From Bacillus sp. EAC (GTDB lineage: Bacteria > Bacillota > Bacilli > Bacillales > Bacillaceae_G): a stretch of 64,000 nucleotides of DNA. The position numbers and the translations under genes are program-made. The notes beneath the pieces are model-generated. The model did no database searches, was not told the origin of the DNA, and saw nothing but the letters and a program-made list of their open reading frames with translations. How positions within the stretch are numbered: position 1 is the stretch's first letter; every line of letters starts with the position of its first letter. The DNA is taken from positions 186,001 through 250,000 of the forward strand of contig NZ_NCSY01000006.1 of assembly GCF_002156875.1 (NCBI RefSeq). The letters are read 5' to 3'. This document shows, piece by piece, positions 3,752-55,355 of this stretch.

Positions 3752-5326
3752 TTAATTCGATTCTCTTACATCTTCCATTGCACGTAATTCTACTCGTCGA
3801 ATTTTTCCAGAGATTGTTTTCGGAAGCTCTTGGACAAACTCTATTTTTCTTGGATATTTATATGGTGCAGTTACGCTTTTCACATGATCCTGAAGCTCTT
3901 TAATTAGTTCTTCTGGATTCGCTGGATTTTCCGTAAGGACGATGAATGCCTTAACAACATTTCCACGTAGCGTATCCGGACTTGCTACTACAGCACATTC
4001 TTTTACTAGTTTATGCTGAACAAGAGCGTCTTCGATTTCGAATGGACCAATTGTATATCCTGAACTGATAATGATGTCATCACTACGGCCATCAAACCAA
4101 TAGTAACCATCCTCATCTTTTTTCGCTCGATCTCCTGTTAAATAGTAATCACCTTTAATTTGTGCGTTAGTACGCTCCAAGTCATTATAGTAATGTTTAA
4201 ATAATGCAGGTGACTTTATGTGAACACCGATATTTCCTACTTGGTTTACTCCTACCGGAATACCATGGTCGTCAACAATATCAACTAAATTTCCCGGAGT
4301 AGGAATTCCCATCGAACCTTCTTTTGCTTTTATATCTTTCATTGTACCAATTAATAAAGTATTTTCTGTTTGTCCATATCCATCTCTTACATCAACTTGA
4401 AAATATTTTTTAAAAGTACGAATTACTTCTAGATTCAAAGGTTCTCCTGCAGAGACGGCACTTCTTAAAGCAGGCAAGTCATACATTTCTAAATTCTCTT
4501 CTTTCGCCATAAAACGGTATTCAGTAGGTGTACTACAGAATACTGAAATATCATGTTCCTTAATTAATGATAGGAATGTTTTTGCTTCAAACTTCCCTTC
4601 ATAAAAGAACCCTGTTGCACCACTACCTAGAGTTGCTAAAAATGGACTCCATATCCATTTTTGCCAACCTGGGCCTGCTGTTGCCCAAACTATGTCATCT
4701 TCTGTCACATCTAACCAACTCGAAGCAACTGTTCGAATATGTGCATATCCCCAGCTATGTGTATGTACAACTCCTTTTGGATTCCCTGTTGTACCCGAAG
4801 TATATGAAATAAAGGCCAAATCATCACTTTTTGTCTCTACTGTTAGGACATGAGCACCGCTTATTGCCTGCTCATTTAAGGAAATCCAAACACCATTTTC
4901 TTCATGGATGGTAAATAATTTATATTTCCCACCTTTAACTATACTATTGAATGTATTTAAGTACTCATTGTGAGCGACAATTGCTTTGACTTCACTATGT
5001 TCGATACGATACAAAATATCTTTTAATGTTAATAATTCTGATCCTGGAACAATAACACAGCCAATTTTCAATATGGCCAAATAAACCGCATATGTTTCAA
5101 CACATCGCGGCATCATTACAAATAGTTTATCCCCTTTTTCAAGTCCATTATTTTTAAATGTAAAGGCGTATTGATGAACTTTATTATATAAATCCTTATA
5201 CGATATTTGATGAGTTTCACCTTTCGCACATACCCATTTAAGTGCCAGTTTGTTTGTTGATGCAAATTTCTCAATTTCCCAAACAATATTATACATTTTT
5301 GGAGCAATTAGACTAGTTCCAATCAT
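3752..5326 (-). CDS. ytcI: Acyl-CoA synthetase, YtcI-like
   Basis: A 524-residue member of the AMP-forming acyl-CoA synthetase superfamily. The ATP/AMP loop YTSGTTGNPKGV is at residues 175-186. It is followed by DGYGQTENT, the YLTGDRAKKDEDGYYWFDGR hinge region, and the catalytic Lys508 in PKTISGKIRR. This architecture activates a short- or medium-chain carboxylic acid to its CoA thioester in the cytosol; the acid cannot be told from sequence. GGGGG lies 9 nt before the ATG. The neighbour YtcJ could supply its acid substrate, but that is inference. Confidence 0.88.
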   Translation of the reverse strand: MIGTSLIAPKMYNIVWEIEKFASTNKLALKWVCAKGETHQISYKDLYNKVHQYAFTFKNNGLEKGDKLFVMMPRCVETYAVYLAILKIGCVIVPGSELLTLKDILYRIEHSEVKAIVAHNEYLNTFNSIVKGGKYKLFTIHEENGVWISLNEQAISGAHVLTVETKSDDLAFISYTSGTTGNPKGVVHTHSWGYAHIRTVASSWLDVTEDDIVWATAGPGWQKWIWSPFLATLGSGATGFFYEGKFEAKTFLSLIKEHDISVFCSTPTEYRFMAKEENLEMYDLPALRSAVSAGEPLNLEVIRTFKKYFQVDVRDGYGQTENTLLIGTMKDIKAKEGSMGIPTPGNLVDIVDDHGIPVGVNQVGNIGVHIKSPALFKHYYNDLERTNAQIKGDYYLTGDRAKKDEDGYYWFDGRSDDIIISSGYTIGPFEIEDALVQHKLVKECAVVASPDTLRGNVVKAFIVLTENPANPEELIKELQDHVKSVTAPYKYPRKIEFVQELPKTISGKIRRVELRAMEDVRESN

Positions 5327-44710: not shown

Positions 44711-45853
44711 TCAGGCACCATAAACCAAATTCCCATTAATAAACGTAGCTTTTACATTTAATTTCTGATCAATCATGACAATGTTTGCTTTTTTTCCAGG
44801 TTCTAAGCTTCCTACTTCATGATCAATATTTAGCAGTTTTGCTTGGTTTCGGCTTACCATTGGTAAAATGCTTTCAAGTGGAATACCCAGAACCTCTTTT
44901 ATATTTTTTAAGCATTCCATTAAATTAGTGGTACTTCCTGCCAGTGATCCTGTTTCCACAGTCCGGGCAATTTTATTTTCAACCTTTACTTCTATTGTCC
45001 CTAAGGTATAATTGCCGTCGGGCAAATTAGCAGCTGCCATTGAGTCGCTAATCAATAACACTTGGTCCTGCCCTTTTGACTTATAAAGTAACTTGATTGC
45101 CCCGGGATGAACATGGTGCAAATCAGCGATACACTCGCAATAGCATTGATCATTTGTGAGCACGGCCCCAACGCATCCAGGATCTCGATGGTTAAACCCG
45201 CGCATCCCATTATAAGTATGGACCGCAATCCTTGCTCCGTGTTCAATTGCGTTATTTGTAGTATCATAGTCTGCATTGGTGTGACCTATCGAGACGTGAA
45301 TTCCTTTTTTCGTTAAGAACTTAATCGCTTCTTCTGCAAGTTCCTTTTCAGGAGCAATCGTCATAACCTTAATTGTATTGTTTGAAATCTCAATTAGCTC
45401 TTTCAACTCATCCAAAGAGAGTTCACGCATAAATTTGACGGGATGTGCTCCACGATGCTCCGGAGTAATATAGGGTCCTTCTACGTATGAGCCAATTATT
45501 TCCGCACCTCTTGACTTACCAATCGCTTCACTGACAACCTTTATTGCATTTTTAATTTTTTCAAAATCATGGGTAAGAGTGGTTGGTAAAAATCCCGTGA
45601 CACCGGTCCGAGCGAGCGACATGGACATTTCTTGCAGAGAATGGATACTTCCATCCATCGTGTCATTCCCCGCAAGTCCATGAATATGGATATCAATCAT
45701 GCCAGGAATGGCTTCGAAACCTGAAAAATCCAAAATCTCACATGAAGGCTTTTTCGTTGTAATTTCTTGAATTTTTCCATTTTCGATCAATAAATAGCCT
45801 GTATCTAAGACTTGATTCAATGTATAAAATTTTTCTGCCTTAATCGCTTTCAT
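44711..45853 (-). CDS. nagA: N-acetylhexosamine-6-phosphate deacetylase (NagA/AgaA type)
   Basis: A 380-residue amidohydrolase. Metal and substrate segments are GMIDIHIHGLAGNDTMDG, EGPYITPEHRGAHP, GHTNADYDTT, HTYNGMRGFNHRDPG, CIADLHHVHP and the catalytic Asp in LLISDSMAA. It removes acetate from GlcNAc-6-P or GalNAc-6-P. The neighbours (AgaS, LacC-type kinase, KbaY-type aldolase) and the lack of a NagB gene suggest GalNAc-6-P. Last gene of the operon that starts at 49874; 86 bp separate it from the kinase gene upstream. Confidence 0.9.
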   Translation of the reverse strand: MKAIKAEKFYTLNQVLDTGYLLIENGKIQEITTKKPSCEILDFSGFEAIPGMIDIHIHGLAGNDTMDGSIHSLQEMSMSLARTGVTGFLPTTLTHDFEKIKNAIKVVSEAIGKSRGAEIIGSYVEGPYITPEHRGAHPVKFMRELSLDELKELIEISNNTIKVMTIAPEKELAEEAIKFLTKKGIHVSIGHTNADYDTTNNAIEHGARIAVHTYNGMRGFNHRDPGCVGAVLTNDQCYCECIADLHHVHPGAIKLLYKSKGQDQVLLISDSMAAANLPDGNYTLGTIEVKVENKIARTVETGSLAGSTTNLMECLKNIKEVLGIPLESILPMVSRNQAKLLNIDHEVGSLEPGKKANIVMIDQKLNVKATFINGNLVYGA

Positions 45854-45939
45854 TCCATTCCCACTCCTCTAGATTCCTAGCACATTGCTGAAGAATAATT
45901 GGCAACTCCACTATATGTACTGCCTCTTACCCTTCAAAA

Positions 45940-46872
45940 TTATACTTGTAAGTGGTTTAGCTTCTTTAATACTTTGAAGCATGCTCCGTACATTCCAGCG
46001 TCATTTCCTAAGACTGAAGGAAATACTAAGTTCCCCTTTTCATAAATCGGCATGATTTGCTTTGTAATCTCAGCATTGATATCTAGAATAAATTGGTCTG
46101 TTTGTTCTGCAATTCCTCCGCCGATAATGATTGCCTCTGGATTGAGCAGATGTGCAACATTTACAAGTCCAATACTTAAATAATGAATAAATCTTTTATA
46201 TACGGTTGAAGCAATTGAATCCTTTTCTATCACTAACTTGAGAATTTCTTCTCCAGAAATATTCTTCACAAATTCTCCTTGTTTCTTCTTTTCTTCTATA
46301 AAATCATTTACTAAAGCTGATGTGGCAGCATATCGTTCGTAACAACCTTTTCGCCCGCAACCGCAAACGCGTCCATCGCTGACGATAACAGTGTGGCCTA
46401 ATTCACCAGCTAGATTATGGGATCCATTCACAATCTTTCCGTCTACGATTATAGTACTGCCTATGCCTGTTCCTAATGTTAAAAAAACGACATTTCGCTT
46501 TCCTCGAATTGCGCCCTTCCACATTTCACCTAAGCAGGCACTTTTTACATCGTTTTCAACACTAACAGGTAATTCAAATTTATTGAATAAAATGTCAGCC
46601 AACTTCATTCCAGAATAGTTGGGAAGATTGTTGGAAAATAAAATTTCTCCCTTTTCATGATCGACCAAACCACAGGTTGAGATTCCGATTCCTGCTATTG
46701 AAAAATCATTTTGGAGCATTTCTATCTTTTCGACTAGAAGCTCAGGAAGGAACTTTTGTATATCACTTTTAGGGGTCGCCACTTTGTCTTTGATGATCAA
46801 ATGACCTTTTTGATCCAATAGTCCATATTTGATAAACGTACCTCCGATATCAAAACAAACAATATAGTCCAC
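45940..46872 (-). CDS. ROK-family sugar kinase
   Basis: A 310-residue ROK kinase. The ATP loop is FDIGGTFIKYGLLD, the catalytic Asp lies in ENDVKSACLGE, and the sugar/zinc signature is ELGHTVIVSDGRVCGCGRKGCYERYA. It lacks an N-terminal helix-turn-helix, so it is an enzyme, not a repressor. In this cluster it most likely phosphorylates imported GalNAc (or GlcNAc) at O6, like the AgaK-type ROK kinases. The start is GTG at 46870-46872 with AGGGGG 8 nt upstream, 1 bp after the stop of the gene before it. Confidence 0.88.
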   Translation of the reverse strand: MDYIVCFDIGGTFIKYGLLDQKGHLIIKDKVATPKSDIQKFLPELLVEKIEMLQNDFSIAGIGISTCGLVDHEKGEILFSNNLPNYSGMKLADILFNKFELPVSVENDVKSACLGEMWKGAIRGKRNVVFLTLGTGIGSTIIVDGKIVNGSHNLAGELGHTVIVSDGRVCGCGRKGCYERYAATSALVNDFIEEKKKQGEFVKNISGEEILKLVIEKDSIASTVYKRFIHYLSIGLVNVAHLLNPEAIIIGGGIAEQTDQFILDINAEITKQIMPIYEKGNLVFPSVLGNDAGMYGACFKVLKKLNHLQV

Positions 46873-46873
46873 A

Positions 46874-47809
46874 TTACTCTCCCCCTGTTAATTCTTTCAC
46901 CTTAATGACATTCAAAAAGTATTGCACTTGTGATAAATCGATTGATCCTGTTCTTTCCGATACCGCATTTGACATTCCGCATGCACACGACCACTTGAGT
47001 ACCTCCTCAATTGGATATCCCCTGGAATGAGCGTATGTGAAACCGGCAAGCATACTATCTCCTGAACCGACTTGATGAACAGTTGTTAAAGTTGGGATAA
47101 TAGCCTGAAGAACCCGGCTTCTACTAATTAATAAGGCCCCGTCTTCTCCTAATGATAGAAGGACGAATTCCACTCCATTCTGACAGAGTGCCTGAGCATG
47201 CAACATCATGCCCTTCAAAGATATTTGTCCTTCTCCAATTAACTTGCAAAATTCTTCCCTATTTGGTTTTATTAAAAAGGGCTTCCCGTGAACACCTTCG
47301 GCTAATGCATCCCCACTTGAATCTAATAGTAAATACTTTCCATGTTGTTTTGCTTTTTCTGCCAGCTGCCGGTAAAAATCCGCCTCTAATCCACCGGGTA
47401 GGCTACCAGAAACCACGATATATTCCATTGATTCGAGAATGGTGTCGAAATTTTTCAAAAACTCTTCTCTTTCATTTTCCACTATCTTAGGGCCTTGTTC
47501 AAGGATTTCTGTATGACCTTCCCTTGATTCAATCGTTAAACAAAACCTTGTTTCACCTTGTATTGGTATAAAGCGATTGATTAACTTCCAATTAGGGAGT
47601 TGCTCTGCGATCCATTCACCGCTTTTCCCTCCTAAAAATCCAGTACATGTAACTTTAGCCCCTAATTGTGATAAAACACGCGAGACATTCAGCCCTTTAC
47701 CGCCTGCTGTTTTATCCACGGATGAAACACGATTCACTTCGTCCAACTGAAAGGCTGATAGGCTGTATCTAATATCAATAGCCGGGTTTAATGTCACTGT
47801 TGCAATCAT
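46874..47809 (-). CDS. PfkB-family kinase, LacC-like (tagatose-6-phosphate kinase)
   Basis: A 311-residue PfkB-type kinase of the LacC/FruK branch: MIATVTLNPAIDIRYSL, the KTAGGKGLNVSRVLSQLG sugar site and the GSGDSMLAGF anion hole with the catalytic Asp. With the AgaS-type enzyme and the class II aldolase it should turn tagatose-6-P into tagatose-1,6-bisphosphate; 1-phosphofructokinase activity is an alternative. ATG at 47807-47809 has GAGGAT upstream, within the tail of the aldolase gene. The open frame runs 10 codons further upstream into that gene. Confidence 0.87.
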   Translation of the reverse strand: MIATVTLNPAIDIRYSLSAFQLDEVNRVSSVDKTAGGKGLNVSRVLSQLGAKVTCTGFLGGKSGEWIAEQLPNWKLINRFIPIQGETRFCLTIESREGHTEILEQGPKIVENEREEFLKNFDTILESMEYIVVSGSLPGGLEADFYRQLAEKAKQHGKYLLLDSSGDALAEGVHGKPFLIKPNREEFCKLIGEGQISLKGMMLHAQALCQNGVEFVLLSLGEDGALLISRSRVLQAIIPTLTTVHQVGSGDSMLAGFTYAHSRGYPIEEVLKWSCACGMSNAVSERTGSIDLSQVQYFLNVIKVKELTGGE

Positions 47810-47814
47810 TTTTT

Positions 47815-48666
47815 CTATCCTCGATTCACACTGCCGCACATTTTGATTTTATCGGCAACCACTTTTTTCATTTCAGCCTTTGCATCTTTAAAATAATACC
47901 TTGGGTCATTGGCATCTGGGTGTTCTTGTAAATAACCACGTAGGCCTTTAATAAAAGCCATCTTTAATTCAGTGGCAATATTTACTTTACAAATCCCTCG
48001 CTTGATCGTTTTTTGAACTAATTCATCTGGTAACCCTGAAGCACCATGAAGAACTAGTGGGATATTAACTTCCTTTTGAATAGCAGTTAATCGATCAATA
48101 TCTAATTTGGGTTCCCCTTTATATAGTCCATGAGCCGTACCAATGGCGACTGCTAATGAATCAATTCCGGTTCTGGAAACAAACTCGCAGGCTTCTGTCG
48201 GATTTGTATAAATCTGATCCCTTTCATCTACTTCCAAATCATCCTCGATCCCACTTAGCCGGCCAAGTTCTGCTTCAACCGCCACGCCAAATGGAGACAC
48301 ATACTCTACCACTTCACGGACGATTCTAACATTCTCCTCAAAGTCATAATGAGAAGCATCGATCATGATAGATGGAATTCCCATTTGGATTAATTCTTTA
48401 ATATCTTCAACTTTTTCATGGTGATCAAGGTGAAAACAAATTGGAATATCGTAGCTTTTTTTAGCGGCCACCATCATGCTAACCAGGAATTCCTTACCAA
48501 TATAGCTCACCGTACTTGGTGTCGCAGCAATCATGACCGGGGATCGTAGCTCTTGAGCCACTTCTAAAACGGTTTTCATTGTTTCTAAGTTATGAACATT
48601 AAATGCCGGTACAGCATATCCCTTTGACTGTGCATCTAGCAGTATCGCACTCCTTGAAATAATCAT
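47815..48666 (-). CDS. kbaY: Class II tagatose/fructose-bisphosphate aldolase (GatY/KbaY type)
   Basis: A 283-residue class II aldolase with the zinc-binding histidines in FHLDHHEKVE, the AVAIGTAHGLYKG loop and VLHGASGLPDE, as in KbaY/GatY. It should cleave tagatose-1,6-bisphosphate to DHAP and glyceraldehyde-3-P; the neighbours favour this over fructose-1,6-bisphosphate. The start overlaps the stop of agaS by 4 bp (ATGA), and GGAGGGG precedes it. The kinase follows after 5 bp. Confidence 0.9.
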   Translation of the reverse strand: MIISRSAILLDAQSKGYAVPAFNVHNLETMKTVLEVAQELRSPVMIAATPSTVSYIGKEFLVSMMVAAKKSYDIPICFHLDHHEKVEDIKELIQMGIPSIMIDASHYDFEENVRIVREVVEYVSPFGVAVEAELGRLSGIEDDLEVDERDQIYTNPTEACEFVSRTGIDSLAVAIGTAHGLYKGEPKLDIDRLTAIQKEVNIPLVLHGASGLPDELVQKTIKRGICKVNIATELKMAFIKGLRGYLQEHPDANDPRYYFKDAKAEMKKVVADKIKMCGSVNRG

Positions 48667-49874
48667 GATAACTCCCCTCCATTTTTCAACTCATTAGAAT
48701 AAGGGTAAATTTTGACGCCTTTCACGACCCTGTTTACCACTCCTGAGGGTGATGGATTATCTGGAGAAAAACCAAGATTAATAGATTTATACATTGCGAA
48801 GGTTTGAGCATATAAAATAAAAGGAAAAGCTAGTAAAATATCTTCATTAATCGTTGGTAGATTAACATGATAAAAAAGATCACTATGTTTTTCTGCTGCT
48901 TCATCCTTAAAGGAGGAAATAGCCACTACCTTCCCTCGGTCGGTTTCTCTATAAATCTCTTCTAATATATCGAGATCATATTGTCTTGTGTAAGAGTGGC
49001 AAGATAAGAACACGAATACAATTGTATCTTTATCTAAAATTGACTTAGGACCATGTCGAAACCCTAATGAAGTGTCGAAGGTTGATGGTATCGTTCCGCC
49101 CGTTAACTCTAACAGTTTTAAAGAAGACTCTCTTGCTAAACCTTCAAATACACCTGAGCCTAAATAAACAACTTTTGAAAAAGTAGAAGCAGCTAGTTCT
49201 CTTACACTTTTTTCACTTTCTCTTATGATCGTGTGACCGGCTTGAATTAGATTATCAAGTGTTTCCTCCCATGTGTGAATTTGTTTAACATGAGAAAGAA
49301 GCAAAATAGAGAGAAGCATCGTCGTAAAGCTGCTCGTCATCGCAAAACCTTGATCATTTGCTTCCTCAGGCATGAAGATGACTAAGTGTTTTTCATCGCT
49401 TTTCTTTTTTACAGCTAATAATCCATTTTCATTACATGTAAAAATAATTCCGTAAAAGTCCTCAACGATTTGCTCTCCCAATTGAATAGCTGCTAAGCTT
49501 TCTGGGCTATTGCCTGAGCGGGCAAAGGAAATCATAATCGTCGGAAAGTTCTTATCTAGAAATGAATGAGGATTCGAAACGATATTTGTTGTAGCAATAC
49601 TTTCCACAATTATTTTTTTGTTATTAACTATTCCTTTTAGATGGGGAAGAATGGTGTCTCCTACAAAAGCAGAGGTACCTGCTCCTGTCAAAATGATTCG
49701 TAGTTGCTCATGCTTCTTCTCAATATTTTTTAAAAATGATAGGATACGATCTCTATTAATTAACAGGATTTCCTTTGTTTCATTCCATAATCTAGGTTGC
49801 TGGGCTATTTCTTTCGCTGTATGGCTGGCACCGACATTCATTCTCTCGATTTCACTTGATTTTAATAGCTCCAT
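48663..49874 (-). CDS. agaS: SIS-domain galactosamine-6-phosphate deaminase/isomerase AgaS
   Basis: A 403-residue double-SIS-domain protein of the AgaS type (E. coli AgaS is of like length). Sugar-phosphate-binding parts are ILTGAGTSAFVGDT, ISFARSGNSPES, YLGSGVFEGLARESSLKLLE and TSLGFRHGPKSILD. It should convert galactosamine-6-P to tagatose-6-P and ammonia. ATG at 49872-49874 has AGGAGG 7 nt upstream. It is the first gene of the agaS-kbaY-kinase-ROK-nagA operon and is preceded by operator A. Confidence 0.9.
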   Translation of the reverse strand: MELLKSSEIERMNVGASHTAKEIAQQPRLWNETKEILLINRDRILSFLKNIEKKHEQLRIILTGAGTSAFVGDTILPHLKGIVNNKKIIVESIATTNIVSNPHSFLDKNFPTIMISFARSGNSPESLAAIQLGEQIVEDFYGIIFTCNENGLLAVKKKSDEKHLVIFMPEEANDQGFAMTSSFTTMLLSILLLSHVKQIHTWEETLDNLIQAGHTIIRESEKSVRELAASTFSKVVYLGSGVFEGLARESSLKLLELTGGTIPSTFDTSLGFRHGPKSILDKDTIVFVFLSCHSYTRQYDLDILEEIYRETDRGKVVAISSFKDEAAEKHSDLFYHVNLPTINEDILLAFPFILYAQTFAMYKSINLGFSPDNPSPSGVVNRVVKGVKIYPYSNELKNGGELS

Positions 49875-49894: not shown

Positions 49895-49914
49895 TGTTCA
49901 TGTCATCATTACCA
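49895..49914. promoter_or_regulatory. Operator A, candidate GntR site before agaS
   Basis: TGTTCATG-TCAT-CATTACCA, an imperfect 20-bp palindrome that matches the shared consensus TGGTAATG-N4-CATTACCA at 14 of 16 arm positions. It lies 21 bp before the agaS start. Confidence 0.7.
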
Positions 49915-49922
49915 GTAGAATT

Positions 49923-49951
49923 AAAATAGATACTTTTCGTATCTATTTCAA
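49923..49951 (-). promoter_or_regulatory. Hairpin / possible agaS promoter at the end of the gntR gene
   Basis: The palindrome AAATAGATAC / GTATCTATTT around TTTTC may end the regulator transcript. The same stretch read on the minus strand also offers TTGAAA and TATTTT spaced by 17 bp, just upstream of operator A. Either or both may be true. Confidence 0.4.
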
Positions 49952-50662
49952 TTCTACTGTATAAGTAAATTTATCTCCTCTAGCAATCGATATCGTATAC
50001 TCAATCACTTTACTTTGGTCATAAGTAATACGTTTTAACATAAGACATGGGGCACCTTCAATAATGTTTAACATGTCAGCCTCCACTTTATTAGCGCTAA
50101 CCGCCATAAAGCTTTCCAGTGCACTAGAAATTTTCACATTATACTCGGAACTAAATATCTCATACATCGGCGTATTCTCTAATTTTTGACTGGAAAGGCT
50201 GTTAAAACCTTTGACTGGAACATAGGAAGTTTCATATAACATCGGTTCCTGGTCTGCAAGCCTTAAACGAATGATCTTAAACACTTCTTCTTCGACTGGA
50301 AGATCCATCGCCTTTGCTATTTTATTATCACAGAAGACTTTTTCGAAAGAAACGACTCTAGTAGTTGGAAGCTTTCCAGCTTTCTTCATTTCTTCCGTAA
50401 AACTATAAAATTTCACAAGACTTTGGTTATACGTTCTCGGTGAAACATAGGTTCCTTTACCATGAATCTTATAAATATATCCTTGCTTTTCCAGCTCTTG
50501 CATGGTTTGTCTTACCGTTGTCCGGCTAACCTGGTAGGAATCACATAATTCACGTTCAGACGGCAATTGATCATTTTCAACAAGCTCACCTGTTTCGATT
50601 TTTTCTAATAAAATATCCATTAATTGATAATAAAGCGGAAGTCGAGAATCCTTTTCTACCAT
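49943..50662 (-). CDS. GntR/HutC-family transcriptional regulator
   Basis: A 239-residue regulator. The N-terminal GntR winged helix is clear (LPSERELCDSYQVSRTTVRQ, then GKGTYVS), followed by a UTRA effector domain (about 90-235) with the CLMLKRITYD strand. HutC-type regulators such as NagR, DasR and AgaR-like proteins sense phosphorylated amino sugars. Located between the two arms of the amino-sugar cluster, it is the probable repressor acting at operators A-D; operator B lies before its own gene. AAAGGAG precedes the ATG. Confidence 0.9.
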   Translation of the reverse strand: MVEKDSRLPLYYQLMDILLEKIETGELVENDQLPSERELCDSYQVSRTTVRQTMQELEKQGYIYKIHGKGTYVSPRTYNQSLVKFYSFTEEMKKAGKLPTTRVVSFEKVFCDNKIAKAMDLPVEEEVFKIIRLRLADQEPMLYETSYVPVKGFNSLSSQKLENTPMYEIFSSEYNVKISSALESFMAVSANKVEADMLNIIEGAPCLMLKRITYDQSKVIEYTISIARGDKFTYTVELK

Positions 50663-50678
50663 GATAAGCTCCTTTAAG

Positions 50679-50698
50679 TGGTATCTTTGTCATAACCA
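50679..50698. promoter_or_regulatory. Operator B, candidate GntR autoregulatory site
   Basis: TGGTATCT-TTGT-CATAACCA matches the consensus at 12 of 16 arm positions. It lies between a TATAAT-like -10 (50714-50719, minus strand) and the regulator's ribosome binding site. Confidence 0.65.
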
Positions 50699-50762
50699 GT
50701 TATATATAAGTATATTATACATAATATTGAAAAAGTTACCACATAATGTCGCAGTGAAATTT

Positions 50763-52025
50763 TTATAATACTTCCTCTTTTGTCATTTTCAAATTTCTCA
50801 TATAATCCTCTAATGACACCATTGCTCCTGAAACTCTTGATTCCTCAGCTGCAAAAGCAATCATATGACTTTTAGCCGAAACTATACCCGACGTTAGACT
50901 GCCTCTATCTTTCTGTTTCACACTAAGGATGAAATCCGCCATAATACCCGTATCTGCACCCATATGCCCACCATCCACTGTTTCAGGATGAACCGTTTCC
51001 TTTTCACCTGAAAAAAGGTTGATTTCAATCTCATTTCTCACATCGTTGCCACTTATTTCTCCCTTTGTTCCCATAATTTTAAAGTTACGGTAGGTTTCGT
51101 TTGTAAACGCAGTCATTGTAAAGGCAACAGTCACATCGTTTTCAAATAATAAATTAACTACCTGGTGATCGACGACGTCGTTATCACAATGAAACACACA
51201 TCGTCCATATGGACCTTCTTGAATCGCTTTTAGTCTGCTATCAATGCTAGGATTTGCTGATATAACATTGGCAGGCCAGACATCCCTATCATGTAAATAC
51301 CACTTAGCAGCTGAATAAGAACATTCCTTTTCTACTTTACATCCATCTAAACAGCGTTGTGTTGAACCTTCGGGAGCATTTTCCTTTTTAAAATAAGTTA
51401 AGCTTCCGTATGAGGATACGCTCTTACATTCTGTACCAATTAACCAAGCTAACATATCCATATCATGACAGCTCTTTTGTAAAATCATCGGACTTGATTT
51501 ACCTGAATTACTCCAGTTGCCACGGACAAAACTATGGGCCTGATGAAAATAGCCTACATTTTCATTCCATTGAATCGATACAATATCACCGATTACTTTT
51601 CGGTCTACACTTTCTTTTAACGCTTGATAAAATGGAGCATATCTCATAACATGGCAAACAGTTAATAATGTATTGTTTTTTTCAGCAGCTTCGGCAATTT
51701 CTAATGTCTCATGTGGCTTCGGTGACATCGGTTTCTCTAGCAAAATACTATAACCTTTTTCGATTGCTTTCATGACAGGCTTATAATGATCACGGTCGGG
51801 ACTGCAAATCAAAATTGCTTCACAAAGTTGATCTTTTTCTAACAGTTCTGTCCAATCTTCAAATCTCATATTCTCAGGAATATGATGCGCTTCTGCAAAT
51901 TTATCTCTCTTCTCTTTATTCGGTTCAGCTACTGCAATGAATTGAATTTCCTGAGGATACTCGAGTGCATAAGTTCCATATGCATAATATCCCCTGCTTC
52001 CTGCACCAATTAATGCTGCTTTCAT
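50763..52025 (-). CDS. Gfo/Idh/MocA-family oxidoreductase
   Basis: A 420-residue NAD(P)-dependent enzyme. The Rossmann start is AALIGAGSRGYYAYGTYA, the catalytic-lysine motif ILLEKPMSPKPHET, and a helix LQKSCHDMDMLAWLIG follows. A central insert has four cysteines (QRCLDGCKVEKECSYSAAKWY), typical of a subgroup found with sugar ABC transporters. It may oxidise or epimerise the imported sugar, or start glycoside cleavage through a keto intermediate. It is the last gene of the ABC operon, 30 bp after the second permease. The reaction is unknown. Confidence 0.85.
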   Translation of the reverse strand: MKAALIGAGSRGYYAYGTYALEYPQEIQFIAVAEPNKEKRDKFAEAHHIPENMRFEDWTELLEKDQLCEAILICSPDRDHYKPVMKAIEKGYSILLEKPMSPKPHETLEIAEAAEKNNTLLTVCHVMRYAPFYQALKESVDRKVIGDIVSIQWNENVGYFHQAHSFVRGNWSNSGKSSPMILQKSCHDMDMLAWLIGTECKSVSSYGSLTYFKKENAPEGSTQRCLDGCKVEKECSYSAAKWYLHDRDVWPANVISANPSIDSRLKAIQEGPYGRCVFHCDNDVVDHQVVNLLFENDVTVAFTMTAFTNETYRNFKIMGTKGEISGNDVRNEIEINLFSGEKETVHPETVDGGHMGADTGIMADFILSVKQKDRGSLTSGIVSAKSHMIAFAAEESRVSGAMVSLEDYMRNLKMTKEEVL

Positions 52026-52055
52026 TTTCAGTTCCTCCTCGCTTTGTAATTACAG

Positions 52056-52889
52056 TTATTTTCCACCTGTTACAGCAATTCCTTCAATAAATTGTTTTTG
52101 TAGGACAATAAACAAGATAAGCATTGGTAATATTGCTAAAAATGAGCCTGCCATCAAAATAGGGTAGTTTGTTAAATATTGCCCCTGAAGCGATGTCAAT
52201 CCAACTGATAGAGTCATAGACTCAGGTGAACTATTGACAATCATAGGCCACATCAATTCATTCCAGCTCCAAAGAGTAGTAAAAATTCCCAAGGCAACCA
52301 AACCTGGCTTGGCCAGTGGTAGCATAACACGCCAATAAATTTGAAAATGGTTACAGCCATCCAGTCTAGCCGCTTCTTCTAACTCTTTTGGAAGTCCCAT
52401 AAAAAATTGACGTAATAAGAAAGTTCCGAATGCACTAAATAAACCTGGAACCACCACTGCTTGCAGTGTGTTCAACCAACCTAATTTCACCATAATCATA
52501 TATTGCGGAAGTAAAAAAACTTGCCCGGGTACCATTAAAACAGATAGCGCTATCATAAAAAGAATATTTCTGCCTGGAAATTCAATCCTCGCAAAGGCAT
52601 ATGCGGCTATTGAACATAGAAATAATTGCCCTGTTGTACGGATTACCGTAACAATTAGGGTGTTAAACATAAATTTTAAAAAAGGTAACAATGCAAAGAC
52701 TTCTTTATAATTCCCCCATTGAAAATCCTTCGGGATGATAACTGGTGGAACATGAATCGACTCTGCATAAGTCTTTAATGAGGTTAGGATCATCCAAATA
52801 AAAGGTAGGACCATCGCTACCGAGCCGACAATTAGAATTAAATGGATGAGAAGGGTTTTACTTGTAAAAATCTGTCTCGTTTTTTCCAA
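52056..52889 (-). CDS. CUT1 sugar ABC permease (MalG type)
   Basis: A 277-residue permease with six predicted membrane helices and the EAA loop ELEEAARLDGCNHFQIYWRV that docks the ATPase. It pairs with the MalF-type permease encoded 14 bp upstream. The start is TTG at 52887-52889 with GGAGG 8 nt upstream. It belongs to the amino-sugar importer. No ATPase gene is in the cluster, so a shared MsmX-type ATPase is likely. Confidence 0.9.
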   Translation of the reverse strand: MEKTRQIFTSKTLLIHLILIVGSVAMVLPFIWMILTSLKTYAESIHVPPVIIPKDFQWGNYKEVFALLPFLKFMFNTLIVTVIRTTGQLFLCSIAAYAFARIEFPGRNILFMIALSVLMVPGQVFLLPQYMIMVKLGWLNTLQAVVVPGLFSAFGTFLLRQFFMGLPKELEEAARLDGCNHFQIYWRVMLPLAKPGLVALGIFTTLWSWNELMWPMIVNSSPESMTLSVGLTSLQGQYLTNYPILMAGSFLAILPMLILFIVLQKQFIEGIAVTGGK

Positions 52890-52903
52890 TGGTTACTCCT
52901 CCT

Positions 52904-53851
52904 TTAATCATAGTGAACCCATTTTTTCTGTAAAACCATTTGAATTGCAGTAATAATCAGAATGACAACCAATAACAGTACAGCGATTGCGGCTGCATAA
53001 CCTTTATCGTTTAACACGAATGCATGCTGATAAAATAGATAGACAATTGATTGTGTATTTTCCAAAGCTGTACTACTTTTTCCAATCATCATGAAAATCA
53101 AATCGAATACTTGAAACGCTCCAATTAAAGACATGATTGTAACAAAGAAAATAACGGGAGATAGTAGCGGCAACGTTATTTTAAAAAATACTTTGATGGG
53201 ACCAGCCCCATCCATTTCCGCTGCTTCATAATAAGTCTTTGGTATTCCCTGCAGACCAGATAAGAATATGACCATGTTATAACCAATTCCACTCCAAACT
53301 GCCACCACAATTATCGAATATAATGCAATTTTCGGATCACTAACCCATTGTGGACCCTTTATTCCAAAAAGAGATAAAAAATAATTCAGTAGCCCATAAT
53401 CAGAATTATATAGCCATTTCCACACCATGGCGATTGCAGCAGGCATAGTAATAACTGGTAAAAAGTATAAAGTTCGATAGACAGATTTCCCTTTTATTTT
53501 TTGGTTTAAGAGAACCGCAAGAAGAATAGAAAAGAAAACCCCAAGAGGAACAGTAAAAATAATATATATCCCTGTATTTTTAAACGACTGCAAAAGGTTT
53601 GAATCCTCTAGCATCCGTTTATAATTATCCAATCCAGTCCACTCATACTGTCCAAATGCTCCCCATTCGGTAAAACTAAAGTAAAAAGTTTGTATGATTG
53701 GCCATAGGTAAAATATTAATAAACCTAGCATAGTTGGAGCAATCATCAGATATGCCCAAAAGTAATCGGAACGTTTCTTTGTCTTAGATAAGTTTGGAAC
53801 TTTTAATTCTCTATTAACCTTCGCAACTACTTGTAGAGGAGTTTCCTTCAC
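52904..53851 (-). CDS. CUT1 sugar ABC permease (MalF type)
   Basis: A 315-residue permease with about six membrane helices (first FWAYLMIAPTMLGLLIFYLW) and the EAA loop YYEAAEMDGAGPIKVFFKIT. It forms the membrane channel with the MalG-type protein. GTG at 53849-53851 with AAAGGAGGG 6 nt upstream is preferred; the frame is open 18 codons further, but that part overlaps a hairpin behind the binding-protein gene. Confidence 0.9.
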   Translation of the reverse strand: MKETPLQVVAKVNRELKVPNLSKTKKRSDYFWAYLMIAPTMLGLLIFYLWPIIQTFYFSFTEWGAFGQYEWTGLDNYKRMLEDSNLLQSFKNTGIYIIFTVPLGVFFSILLAVLLNQKIKGKSVYRTLYFLPVITMPAAIAMVWKWLYNSDYGLLNYFLSLFGIKGPQWVSDPKIALYSIIVVAVWSGIGYNMVIFLSGLQGIPKTYYEAAEMDGAGPIKVFFKITLPLLSPVIFFVTIMSLIGAFQVFDLIFMMIGKSSTALENTQSIVYLFYQHAFVLNDKGYAAAIAVLLLVVILIITAIQMVLQKKWVHYD

Positions 53852-53875
53852 TATATTCCCTCCTTTTAAGGAAAA

Positions 53876-53902
53876 TAAAGAGAAGAAATAACTTCTCCTC
53901 TT
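53876..53902 (-). other. Stem-loop between binding protein and permease genes
   Basis: AGGAGAAG / CTTCTCT around TTATTT on the minus strand, with only a weak T-run. Such hairpins protect the binding-protein mRNA or reduce downstream readthrough. Confidence 0.5.
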
Positions 53903-53910
53903 CATTTTTT

Positions 53911-55155
53911 TTAGTTCTTAGCTAGTGCCTCATCGGCCTTTTTCGTTAACTCTTTTGCTGCATCCTCTACACTTTCTTCTCCGCTCCAAGCCTTTTTCAG
54001 AATATCTGTTTCATATTGCCAAATTTCTCCTGTATTTTTCACACTTGGAAGTGGAACAGAATAGTCAACACCGTCAATAAAGGCTTTTAAGTTCAAATTC
54101 GGAACAGATTGAATCCAAGCTTCTTGAGTACCATTATAAGCAGGTATAACTGTTCCCGTATTCGCATACACTTCCGCTGCTTCTTTAGATCCCAGGAACT
54201 GTACAAACTTCCAAGCAGCATTCTTATGTTTTGTATTCGCCGCAATAACATTAGATAGACCATGTATCGCAACCGCACGTTGTTTTCCTTTTGGTACAAC
54301 CGCAACGTTTAAATCAGGATTTTTTTTATATTCTGGGACCATCCAAGGACCATCAAACATCATAGCTATTTTTCCTGAAGAGAATAATTCAGAAGGAGCC
54401 GTTTCTGTCATTTGGGCTTGTGTAGGAGAAAGCCCTTCCTTAATAAAGCTAATATTGTATTTAAGTGCTTCAATAGCCTCAGGTTGGTCAAAGCCAACAG
54501 ACTTGCCATCTTCAGAAACGATATGCCCGCCATTTTGCCAAATTAAATCATAATAACCACCTTGGTTACCCATTAACGCAGCATAACCCCAAATACCTTT
54601 ACCCTTGTTTGTTAGCTTAGTCGCTACTTCCTTTAATTTGTTCCAGTCCCAAGAATCATCTGGATATGGCAAACCTGCTTCATCAAAAATCTTTTTGTTA
54701 TACCATAAGCCTGTCGTATCAAAATCTTTTGGAATACCAAATAATTTTCCATCAACTGTATAAAGATCAACTAAAGACTTTGGATAGTTGTCTAAACTAT
54801 AATTATCTTTTTTAGCCATATCGCTAAGGGGAAGAATTACTTTACCTTCAGCATATTGAACTACGTGTGGACCATTCATCCATAAGACATCAGGCAATGC
54901 TCCACCTGTTGCAGCCGTTTCAAGCTTTTGGAAATACTGAGCGTAAGGCGTAAGTTCCGTTTTCACCTTAATATCCGGATATTTTTCATTAAATAATTTT
55001 ATAATTTCATTAATCGCAGGAACCTGTTTCTTATCCCAAAATCCATAAGTAATTTCGACTTTACCGTCACTTGATGTTTGATCACTAGAACTACATCCAG
55101 CTAAACCTAGTAATCCTAAGGCTAAGGTTAAAAACATAATAAGCCATTTTTTCAT
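53911..55155 (-). CDS. Sugar ABC transporter binding lipoprotein
   Basis: A 414-residue extracellular solute-binding protein (family 1). It has a lipoprotein signal peptide with lipobox LAGC (Cys21), then ITYGFWDKKQVPAINEII, PDVLWMNGPHVVQYA and the late KNAAWKFVQFLGSKEAA segment. It should bind an amino sugar or oligosaccharide and pass it to the permeases. ATG at 55153-55155 has AAGGAAGGG upstream. It is the first gene of the importer operon, preceded by operators C and D. Confidence 0.92.
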   Translation of the reverse strand: MKKWLIMFLTLALGLLGLAGCSSSDQTSSDGKVEITYGFWDKKQVPAINEIIKLFNEKYPDIKVKTELTPYAQYFQKLETAATGGALPDVLWMNGPHVVQYAEGKVILPLSDMAKKDNYSLDNYPKSLVDLYTVDGKLFGIPKDFDTTGLWYNKKIFDEAGLPYPDDSWDWNKLKEVATKLTNKGKGIWGYAALMGNQGGYYDLIWQNGGHIVSEDGKSVGFDQPEAIEALKYNISFIKEGLSPTQAQMTETAPSELFSSGKIAMMFDGPWMVPEYKKNPDLNVAVVPKGKQRAVAIHGLSNVIAANTKHKNAAWKFVQFLGSKEAAEVYANTGTVIPAYNGTQEAWIQSVPNLNLKAFIDGVDYSVPLPSVKNTGEIWQYETDILKKAWSGEESVEDAAKELTKKADEALAKN

Positions 55156-55215
55156 AATGTTTCCCTTCCTTTTCATGAAAGTTTAATAGATTTTAAACCT
55201 AATAAGATTTCTATC

Positions 55216-55235
55216 TCATCATGACGTTACTACCA
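55216..55235. promoter_or_regulatory. Operator C, candidate GntR site
   Basis: TCATCATG-ACGT-TACTACCA matches the consensus at 11 of 16 arm positions and shares the extended CCAGTTGAT end with operator D. It lies in the importer leader, 61 bp before the start codon. Confidence 0.55.
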
Positions 55236-55320
55236 GTTGATTTGTAAAGGCTTACAAAAATGTCCTATTGTACCTATGAATAAAAATTATCACCCCCTAG
55301 TTATAATTTTAAAACCGATA

Positions 55321-55340
55321 TAGTAATGATGTCATTACCA
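55321..55340. promoter_or_regulatory. Operator D, candidate GntR site at the importer promoter
   Basis: TAGTAATG-ATGT-CATTACCA matches the consensus at 15 of 16 arm positions, the best of the four. It begins about 9 nt downstream of a minus-strand -10 box. Confidence 0.75.
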
Positions 55341-55349
55341 GTTGATGAT

Positions 55350-55355
55350 AGTATA
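55350..55355 (-). promoter_or_regulatory. Candidate -10 box of the importer operon
   Basis: TATACT on the minus strand. The -35 region at 17 bp is poor (TTTAGG). The site is supported mainly by operator D lying over the expected start. Apart from operators and this box, the 400-bp gap holds only the hairpin at 55516-55558. Confidence 0.45.

Follow-up and report, generated by a model that had tools for sequence, protein, structure and literature searches.

The operators of HutC-type GntR regulators share a skeleton made of GT, four bases and AC, and the GT-AC distance is 4 nt in most HutC sites (PMC4494728). The native dre-sites of NagR are non-palindromic, one half carrying GG at -5/-4 and the other G-4, often with T at -5, and G-7 is found almost exclusively in the poorer half (PMC4333415). 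Suvorova et al. describe additional half-sites beside HutC, FadR and YtrA palindromes, the extra box lying 7-12 nt from the site centre, and NagQ acts on direct repeats TGGTATT, a directional operator of TGGT-type units (PMC4494728). In Streptococcus and other Lactobacillales, AgaR1 and AgaR2 are HutC-type regulators of N-acetylgalactosamine (GalNAc) and galactosamine (GalN) genes, including those for deacetylase, isomerase and aldolase; they are autoregulated in most genomes, and their motifs, 20 and 18 bp long, are described as even palindromes (PMC4694137). Here, we analyse a 64,000-nucleotide stretch of the 4.33 Mb genome of Bacillus sp. EAC (G000:C25:186001-250000, hereafter the window), in which an amino-sugar gene cluster and its HutC-type regulator most likely represent a HutC regulon not described before, whose operator is asymmetric, as judged from sequence comparison.

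The cluster comprises ten minus-strand genes, from the importer through the deacetylase (Pfam, NCBIfam). Four sites and the regulator gene are central to it; the ranks given come from two models built on relatives, a hold-out position weight matrix (PWM) and a profile named R1.

55322..55343, minus strand: importer site 1, predicted operator AACTGGTAATGACATCATTACT, over the expected transcription start; hold-out PWM rank 1 (25.3), R1 rank 1.
55217..55238, minus strand: importer site 2, predicted operator AACTGGTAGTAACGTCATGATG, 105 bp downstream of importer site 1 and within the leader; hold-out PWM rank 2, R1 rank 3.
50680..50701, minus strand: predicted operator AACTGGTTATGACAAAGATACC before gntR; hold-out PWM rank 4, R1 rank 4, conserved in the genus.
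49896..49917, minus strand: predicted operator TACTGGTAATGATGACATGAAC before agaS; hold-out PWM rank 3, R1 rank 2, conserved in relatives.
49943..50662, minus strand: gene of the GntR/HutC-type regulator (Pfam GntR and UTRA), the predicted binder of the four sites.

We consider it highly likely that the four sites are operators of the repressor encoded at 49943-50662, which would control amino-sugar import and breakdown through an asymmetric NagR-type core followed by a CATNAC box (motif AACTGGTNATGAC-NN-CATNAC). Orthologues of the regulator, 86-91% identical, are present in all 12 other same-genus genomes searched, the genus being presumably Gottfriedia, to judge from the closest named relatives, Gottfriedia species and Bacillus sp. 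records; 46 loci were taken from named genomes. Applied to 53 upstream regions from 24 loci picked by hand, the window included, unsupervised expectation-maximization (EM) yielded AACTGGTAATGACaACATtAc, and all 12 best runs shown returned this motif, barring shifts and strand. The hold-out PWM, chosen against circularity, was trained on 50 regions of 25 distant loci whose GntR is at most 66% identical, and reached a log-likelihood of 466, as against 78, 90 and 86 for three mononucleotide-shuffled sets. It gave the four sites ranks 1-4 of the window (25.3, 20.6, 19.2 and 18.1); the mirror of importer site 1 came fifth (14.6), and no unrelated position scored above 11.5. Profile R1, a sequence-only model of 42 relatives' sites without any Gottfriedia sequence, also gave them the first four ranks of the whole 4.33 Mb genome (E 2.5e-4, 0.028, 0.081 and 0.13; next 1.13), in a search that scored the best 150 of 3509 first-look candidates, and all 12 other genomes of the genus have R1 sites, with best E values from 2.4e-4 to 5.3e-4. 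Of the four sites, the one before gntR is the weakest. Near misses within long open reading frames (ORFs) were set aside, namely G000:C25:26330 (880-aa, L129), G000:C25:190064, which is window position 4064 (524-aa, L098), and G000:C11:9094 (868-aa, L097).

A preliminary description had presented the sites as copies of a 20-bp palindrome, TGGTAATG-N4-CATTACCA. The four 20-mers do lie where it placed them and match that consensus at 14, 12, 11 and 15 of 16 positions (in coordinate order, from the agaS site to importer site 1); their arms, which match each other at 6, 4, 3 and 7 of 8 positions, make uneven palindromes, and the conserved element is instead asymmetric and directional. By the palindrome consensus, the second and third sites (12 and 11 of 16) look like chance occurrences: exactly 11 matches are reached at 45 positions of the 64 kb window and exactly 12 at 7, counts to which the two sites themselves contribute. 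With up to three mismatches, the window has 3 matches where 0.38 are expected. As a genome probe at the same tolerance, the consensus was unselective (34 places, 26 for the reversed control) and was discarded, whereas the motif derived from relatives, as profile R1, put the four sites at the top of the genome. A degenerate pattern, ACTGGTNATGAYNNCATNA, was also rejected as too loose, with 200 forward and 176 reverse matches at up to three mismatches (control 115 and 97); it matches the genome exactly at two places only, importer site 1 and the agaS site. The supposedly free N4 spacer is constrained as well, its first base (position 12) being A in 100% and its second (position 13) C in 85% of 98 unique sites. 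The original geometry is wrong in detail; the operator set is real and well conserved, in relatives that range from soil bacilli to clostridia, and its assignment to the regulator is strong.

The 239-aa regulator joins an N-terminal GntR winged helix-turn-helix domain (PF00392, 63 bits) to a C-terminal UTRA domain (PF07702, 132 bits), and its nearest solved structures are those of NagR/YvoA (2wv0, 4u0v, 4wwc; E 1.2e-41) and DasR (8.3e-36). In the structure-match alignment, Arg37, Arg47 and Gly68 are the counterparts of NagR Arg38, Arg48 and Gly69, and they are kept in 46/46 regulators, the window's included. Across the 98 unique sites, the conserved column block is AACTGGTNATGACNNCATNAC. Set against the dre rule, the left half has GG, C13 in the right half corresponds to G-4, position 14 is mostly A and hence lacks G-5, and C16 corresponds to G-7, a base that is rare in the left half (7%). 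Importer sites 1 and 2 follow the NagR rule in 16/16 copies each, C13 is present in 32/32 gntR sites, and C16 in 37/37 agaS sites. For the GT-N4-AC skeleton, C occupies the AC position in 16/16, 16/16, 32/32, 22/37 and 13/16 sites of five classes; the agaS site of the window departs from it, with AT in place of AC. The agaS-type sites may be bound differently from the importer-type sites. About 9 nt from the core centre, the CATNAC columns stand at 0.87, 0.84, 0.95 and 0.64, and CATNAC looks like an extra box beside a NagR-type core. By eye, further ATNAC-like boxes seem to be present past CATNAC, at steps of about 8 bp, in the clostridial agaS promoters of loci L083, L084, L086 and L087, for instance AATTACAACATGACAACATTAC in L087.

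The element also has a fixed polarity. Among 955 kb scanned on both strands at a score of at least 16 (the window and the 46 loci, 47 sequences), 117/117 sites score best on the gntR strand, with TGGT upstream, and the opposite strand, which served as the null, gave 0 sites; L090, L092 and L094 have no site at this score. These 117 sites are not independent and represent about nine kinds of position: before gntR and agaS, the two importer sites, before a family 4 glycosidase (L059, L060), before an M60 peptidase (L066, L067), before binding proteins (L072 and, weakly, L075) and before the oxidoreductase (L073); the site in L051 (16.7) is inside a gene and looks like chance. Two sites outside the scan are on the strand opposite the cluster's gntR: in genome G097 (L137), a site precedes a DUF2961 gene, and in G169 (L107), a near-symmetric site precedes a divergent second gntR paralogue, with 18.6 on its own strand and 16.1 on the other. 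Each faces its own gene, which indicates that polarity follows the gene, not the locus. As a tentative generalization, a HutC clade common to Bacillaceae and Clostridia could use a directional composite operator, made of the core and a downstream CATNAC in one orientation to the gene, with promoter copies often 5-6 bases past the -10. If so, the bound complex would be one-sided, for example a dimer with a third DNA contact facing the polymerase, and would also act as a roadblock in leaders.

A symmetric geometry is the strongest competitor, even if we regard it as rather unlikely. In this case, the operator would be a long dyad (GGTAATG-N4-CATTACC, GT-N12-AC) bound symmetrically by one wide-headed dimer or by two overlapping dimers. 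Column pairs across its axis are indeed complementary (e.g., 0.95, 0.82, 0.78 and 0.66 over a background of 0.21-0.33), and for the agaS site of the window the more symmetric form is a 24-bp dyad on this axis, ACTGGTAATG-N4-CATGAACAGT, with 8/10 arm bases matching. Bacillaceae agaS sites such as ACTGGTAATG-ATGA-CATTAACAGT reach 9/10, and in L111, L112, L115, L117 and L118 the mirror of the agaS site scores between 16.4 and 19.7 on the opposite strand. However, its N4 spacer is conserved and asymmetric (the A and C described above), the outer GG is mainly one-sided (pair 5-22: 0.34), all 117 sites score best in one direction, and the published GT-AC distance is 4 nt in most HutC sites (PMC4494728). 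Covariation within the dyad is next to none beyond column composition among the 98 unique sites, and so does not decide between the two axes.

The link between the sites and this particular regulator is provided by a survey of the order. Among 249 genomes, 18 encode an AgaS-family protein at E <1e-60, and a GntR orthologue (at least 51% identity) adjoins agaS in 13 of them, the window's own included. Sites scoring at least 14 within a 4-kb locus are found in 13/13 agaS loci with the adjacent orthologue (in L123 before gntR only) and in 0/5 without it, with the caution that six of the 13 positive genomes are from one genus; by genus, the count is 5/5 with the orthologue and 0/4 without. The PWM used here derives from the EM motif, whose training included G000, G008, G097, G178 and G203, and R1 was trained with G097, G178, G203 and G250; the positive genera of G040, G143 and G169 are absent from both training sets. 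It is improbable that a different regulator, from the cluster or global, is the owner of these sites. GntR paralogues do exist (10 matches in G000, the regulator included), yet the five agaS genomes lacking the orthologue keep such paralogues (best identity 35-41%) and have no agaS sites, and their best genome-wide R1 matches are weak (E 0.075, 0.31 and 0.31, two with none below 0.5), compared with best values between 1.1e-4 and 0.0074 in 19 other genomes of the same check. The four top R1 sites of the window's genome all fall within the cluster, which contains a NagA-type deacetylase. Very probably, then, the regulator of the sites is the HutC-type GntR protein encoded at 49943-50662, and the preliminary proposal of a GntR/HutC operator set is supported by the domain make-up, this co-occurrence and the genome's four best sites.

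The sites stand in a characteristic relation to putative promoters, two of which are positioned as follows.

55350..55355, minus strand: TATACT, the predicted -10 hexamer for the importer operon, from sequence and spacing analysis.
50714..50719, minus strand: predicted gntR -10 TATAAT within a conserved ATGTATAAT, 12 bases before the operator, from upstream regions compared by eye and spacing analysis.

A -10-like hexamer lies six bases upstream of importer site 1 in 13/14 distinct orthologous upstream sequences, the window's included. More broadly, such a hexamer ends 5-6 bases before AACTGG in 14/14 importer-site-1, 15/25 gntR, 4/37 agaS and 6/15 other sequences; shuffles give any -10 call in range about one half of the time and each single spacing at about 0.035. 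In Gottfriedia, the gntR hexamer is mostly 12-13 bases from the site, and importer site 2 has no upstream -10 call (0/16 orthologous copies). An own -10 upstream of the agaS site was considered and left unsupported, with 11/37 sequences against about half in shuffles; in the window, TTGAAA-N17-TATTTT precedes this site in a -35/-10 scan whose total is barely above shuffles. Five loci (L070, L074, L076, L078, L093) have agaS after gntR and a site before gntR only, which suggests that agaS may be transcribed by read-through from gntR. Of the earlier statement that the sites mark all three transcription units, the agaS part is therefore uncertain. The placing of a site over the importer transcript start agrees with TATACT six bases upstream, although this promoter is absent from the list given by the scan.

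These positions also permit a very improbable reading in which the element acts as RNA, a conserved transcript 5'-end AACUGGUAAUGAC..., with an indirect link to GntR. All 117 sites are best on the sense strand, many promoter copies start 5-6 bases past a -10-like hexamer, near the expected first transcript base, and copies also occur within leaders. Against it, the importer-site core follows the NagR DNA-reading rule and co-occurs with a NagR-like protein, and in several clostridial loci (L083, L086, L087) the gntR promoter contains a symmetric DNA version, TGGTACGTACCA, set in the same register.

Further features of the leaders and intergenic regions can be noted. The two importer sites are 97-105 bases apart in the genus and 73, 77 or 143 elsewhere; DNA looping by a fixed helical phase was rejected, this unphased spacing arguing against a tight loop. 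A hairpin with a 16-bp stem spans the gntR stop codon (49918-49954, minus strand) and ends just before the agaS operator, with no T-run after it; single-sequence folds give comparable hairpins, with different stem letters, in those Gottfriedia loci that were folded, as well as in L058, L059, L062, L064, L065, L072 and L073, and none in L069, L071, L077, L061 and the clostridial L081, L083 and L086. Four bases before importer site 2 stands TGTAAGCCTTTACA (55243-55256, minus strand), presumably one mismatch from the CcpA cre consensus; similar sequences were seen by eye in Gottfriedia leaders and not in Rossellomorea leaders. Upstream of the gntR -10, GTGGTAACTTTTTC (50729-50742, minus strand) resembles the inverted right end of the gntR operator (AAAGATACCAC), a possible extra half-site; by eye, GTGGTA with a T-rich tract is seen again within the genus as well as in L058-L060 and L065.

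Chance resemblance is a negligible explanation: although the second and third sites are at background by the palindrome consensus, the hold-out ranking in window and genome and the sites in 12/12 other same-genus genomes speak against it. Several observations nevertheless weigh against the operator reading that we favour. A single core model fails some sites, C13 being present in 22/37 agaS sites and C16 (G-7) in 12/32 gntR sites. A PWM from Clostridia alone (20 regions) puts the four sites at ranks 1, 2, 3 and 7, the last being the gntR site, and the whole-genome R1 E is just 0.081 for importer site 2 and 0.13 for the gntR site. No site scoring at least 9 is found in the 200 bases before gntR in 8/46 loci (L060, L064, L066, L067, L073, L084, L088, L090), nor in the 200 bases after gntR in 9/45 sequences. 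Five window shuffles, on one strand (320 kb), gave 2 positions at 16 or above, and a few of the 117 sites may be chance. Finally, the -35/-10 scan of this stretch found no clear promoter excess (25 against 21.3, standard deviation 4.3) and lists neither the importer nor the gntR -10 hexamer proposed here.

Beside what was computed, namely the sites, their conservation, their orientation, their co-occurrence with the regulator and its conserved DNA-reading residues, we infer binding, repression, an inducer and a role for the extra box, in the following model. The operator would consist of a dre core like that of NagR, CTGGT-NATG-ACNAC, whose upstream half (GG) is strong and whose other half (single G) is weak, and then the CATNAC box. 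Without inducer, a repressor dimer on the core would block RNA polymerase at the transcription start of the importer operon (site 1) and of gntR, the regulator thus limiting its own synthesis, and a repressor bound inside a leader would form a roadblock at importer site 2 and perhaps at the agaS site. A sugar phosphate, probably GalN 6-phosphate or GalNAc 6-phosphate to judge from the enzymes, would loosen binding.

The remaining genes of the cluster are these.

53911..55176, minus strand: substrate-binding protein of an ATP-binding cassette (ABC) importer, first gene of the importer operon (SBP_bac_1).
50763..53905, minus strand: two ABC permeases and a Gfo/Idh/MocA oxidoreductase, the remainder of the importer operon (Pfam, NCBIfam).
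44711..49874, minus strand: catabolic run of agaS, a tagatose-bisphosphate-type aldolase, a PfkB kinase, a ROK kinase and an N-acetylhexosamine-6-phosphate deacetylase (NCBIfam/Pfam).

The PfkB protein is assigned as a hexose kinase (NCBIfam/Pfam). Together, the enzymes could form a potentially full route, in which an imported N-acetylhexosamine is converted to its 6-phosphate, deacetylated and passed through AgaS to tagatose 6-phosphate, which the aldolase cleaves. Because the AgaS and tagatose steps are present, GalNAc is most likely the substrate. The first start codon past the agaS site gives MELLKS... in 7/10 named same-genus relatives, corresponding to window position 49874 and differing from the mechanical ORF start at 49901, and the agaS site probably lies outside the coding region. 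The Gfo/Idh/MocA protein (50763-52025), whose relative in L073 has its own site, could conceivably have a family 109 glycosidase-like function.

Targets found in relatives (the family 4 glycosidase, the M60 peptidase and the binding proteins) suit a GalNAc/O-glycan regulon. Two Neobacillus genomes (L066:4714-7293 and L067), whose GntR is 65-66% identical, have two sites, 101-102 bp from each other, ahead of the gene for an enhancin-type M60 peptidase of 809 aa; the 20-kb locus gave no match to aga genes. Three tandem copies of the site (L060:3942-4022) stand at exact 29-bp steps before a family 4 glycosidase-type gene, and a same-genus genome has a second pair on another contig, 39 bp apart with TATAAT six bases upstream (L160, G010:C39:9426-9485).

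The locus offers a regulon that can be put to the test, its motif defined, for the use of an amino sugar, probably GalNAc, in Bacillaceae and Clostridia. In relatives, the presence of a family 4 glycosidase and of an enhancin-type M60 peptidase among the targets hints at the use of O-linked glycans. Among the matches listed by literature searches (titles and abstract starts), there was no such regulator or motif in Bacillaceae or Clostridia, and for three motif strings searched in paper texts, no title on such a regulator was among the matches listed. For some of the sites, the core obeys an established rule; the unexplained part is the orientation and the extra box. The fixed operator orientation raises a concrete question, that of how a HutC repressor is placed on native sites that are not palindromic.

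Among known systems, directional operators with TGGT-type units are shared with NagQ and with E. coli NanR, which reportedly acts on GGTATA repeats, but those are direct repeats and no tandem TGGT occurs within a site here. Lying about 9 nt from the centre of the core, CATNAC falls within the 7-12 nt of the half-sites of Suvorova et al.; these are described as weaker and as lying on one or both sides, whereas CATNAC is always downstream (PMC4494728). AgaR1 and AgaR2 are likewise HutC-type GntR regulators of GalNAc/GalN genes, but the motif here is asymmetric and oriented, which sets it apart from theirs as described (PMC4694137), and the route includes an ABC importer and a ROK kinase. The E. 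faecalis protein 3ddv, named AgaR in PMC4494728, matches the regulator at just E 1.3e-7, in the UTRA part, compared with 1.2e-41 for NagR. The closest likeness is to NagR (YvoA) of B. subtilis and DasR of Streptomyces, the best PDB matches, with the same base-reading Arg, Arg and Gly; with the NagR dre-sites, the locus shares the half-site spacing GG-N6-C and, at the importer sites, the confinement of GG to one half and a G-7 in the poorer one (PMC4333415). Unlike the NagR system, it serves an AgaS/tagatose route with an ABC importer instead of nagAB and nagP, and its operators carry an added CATNAC box; their fixed orientation may be a further difference.

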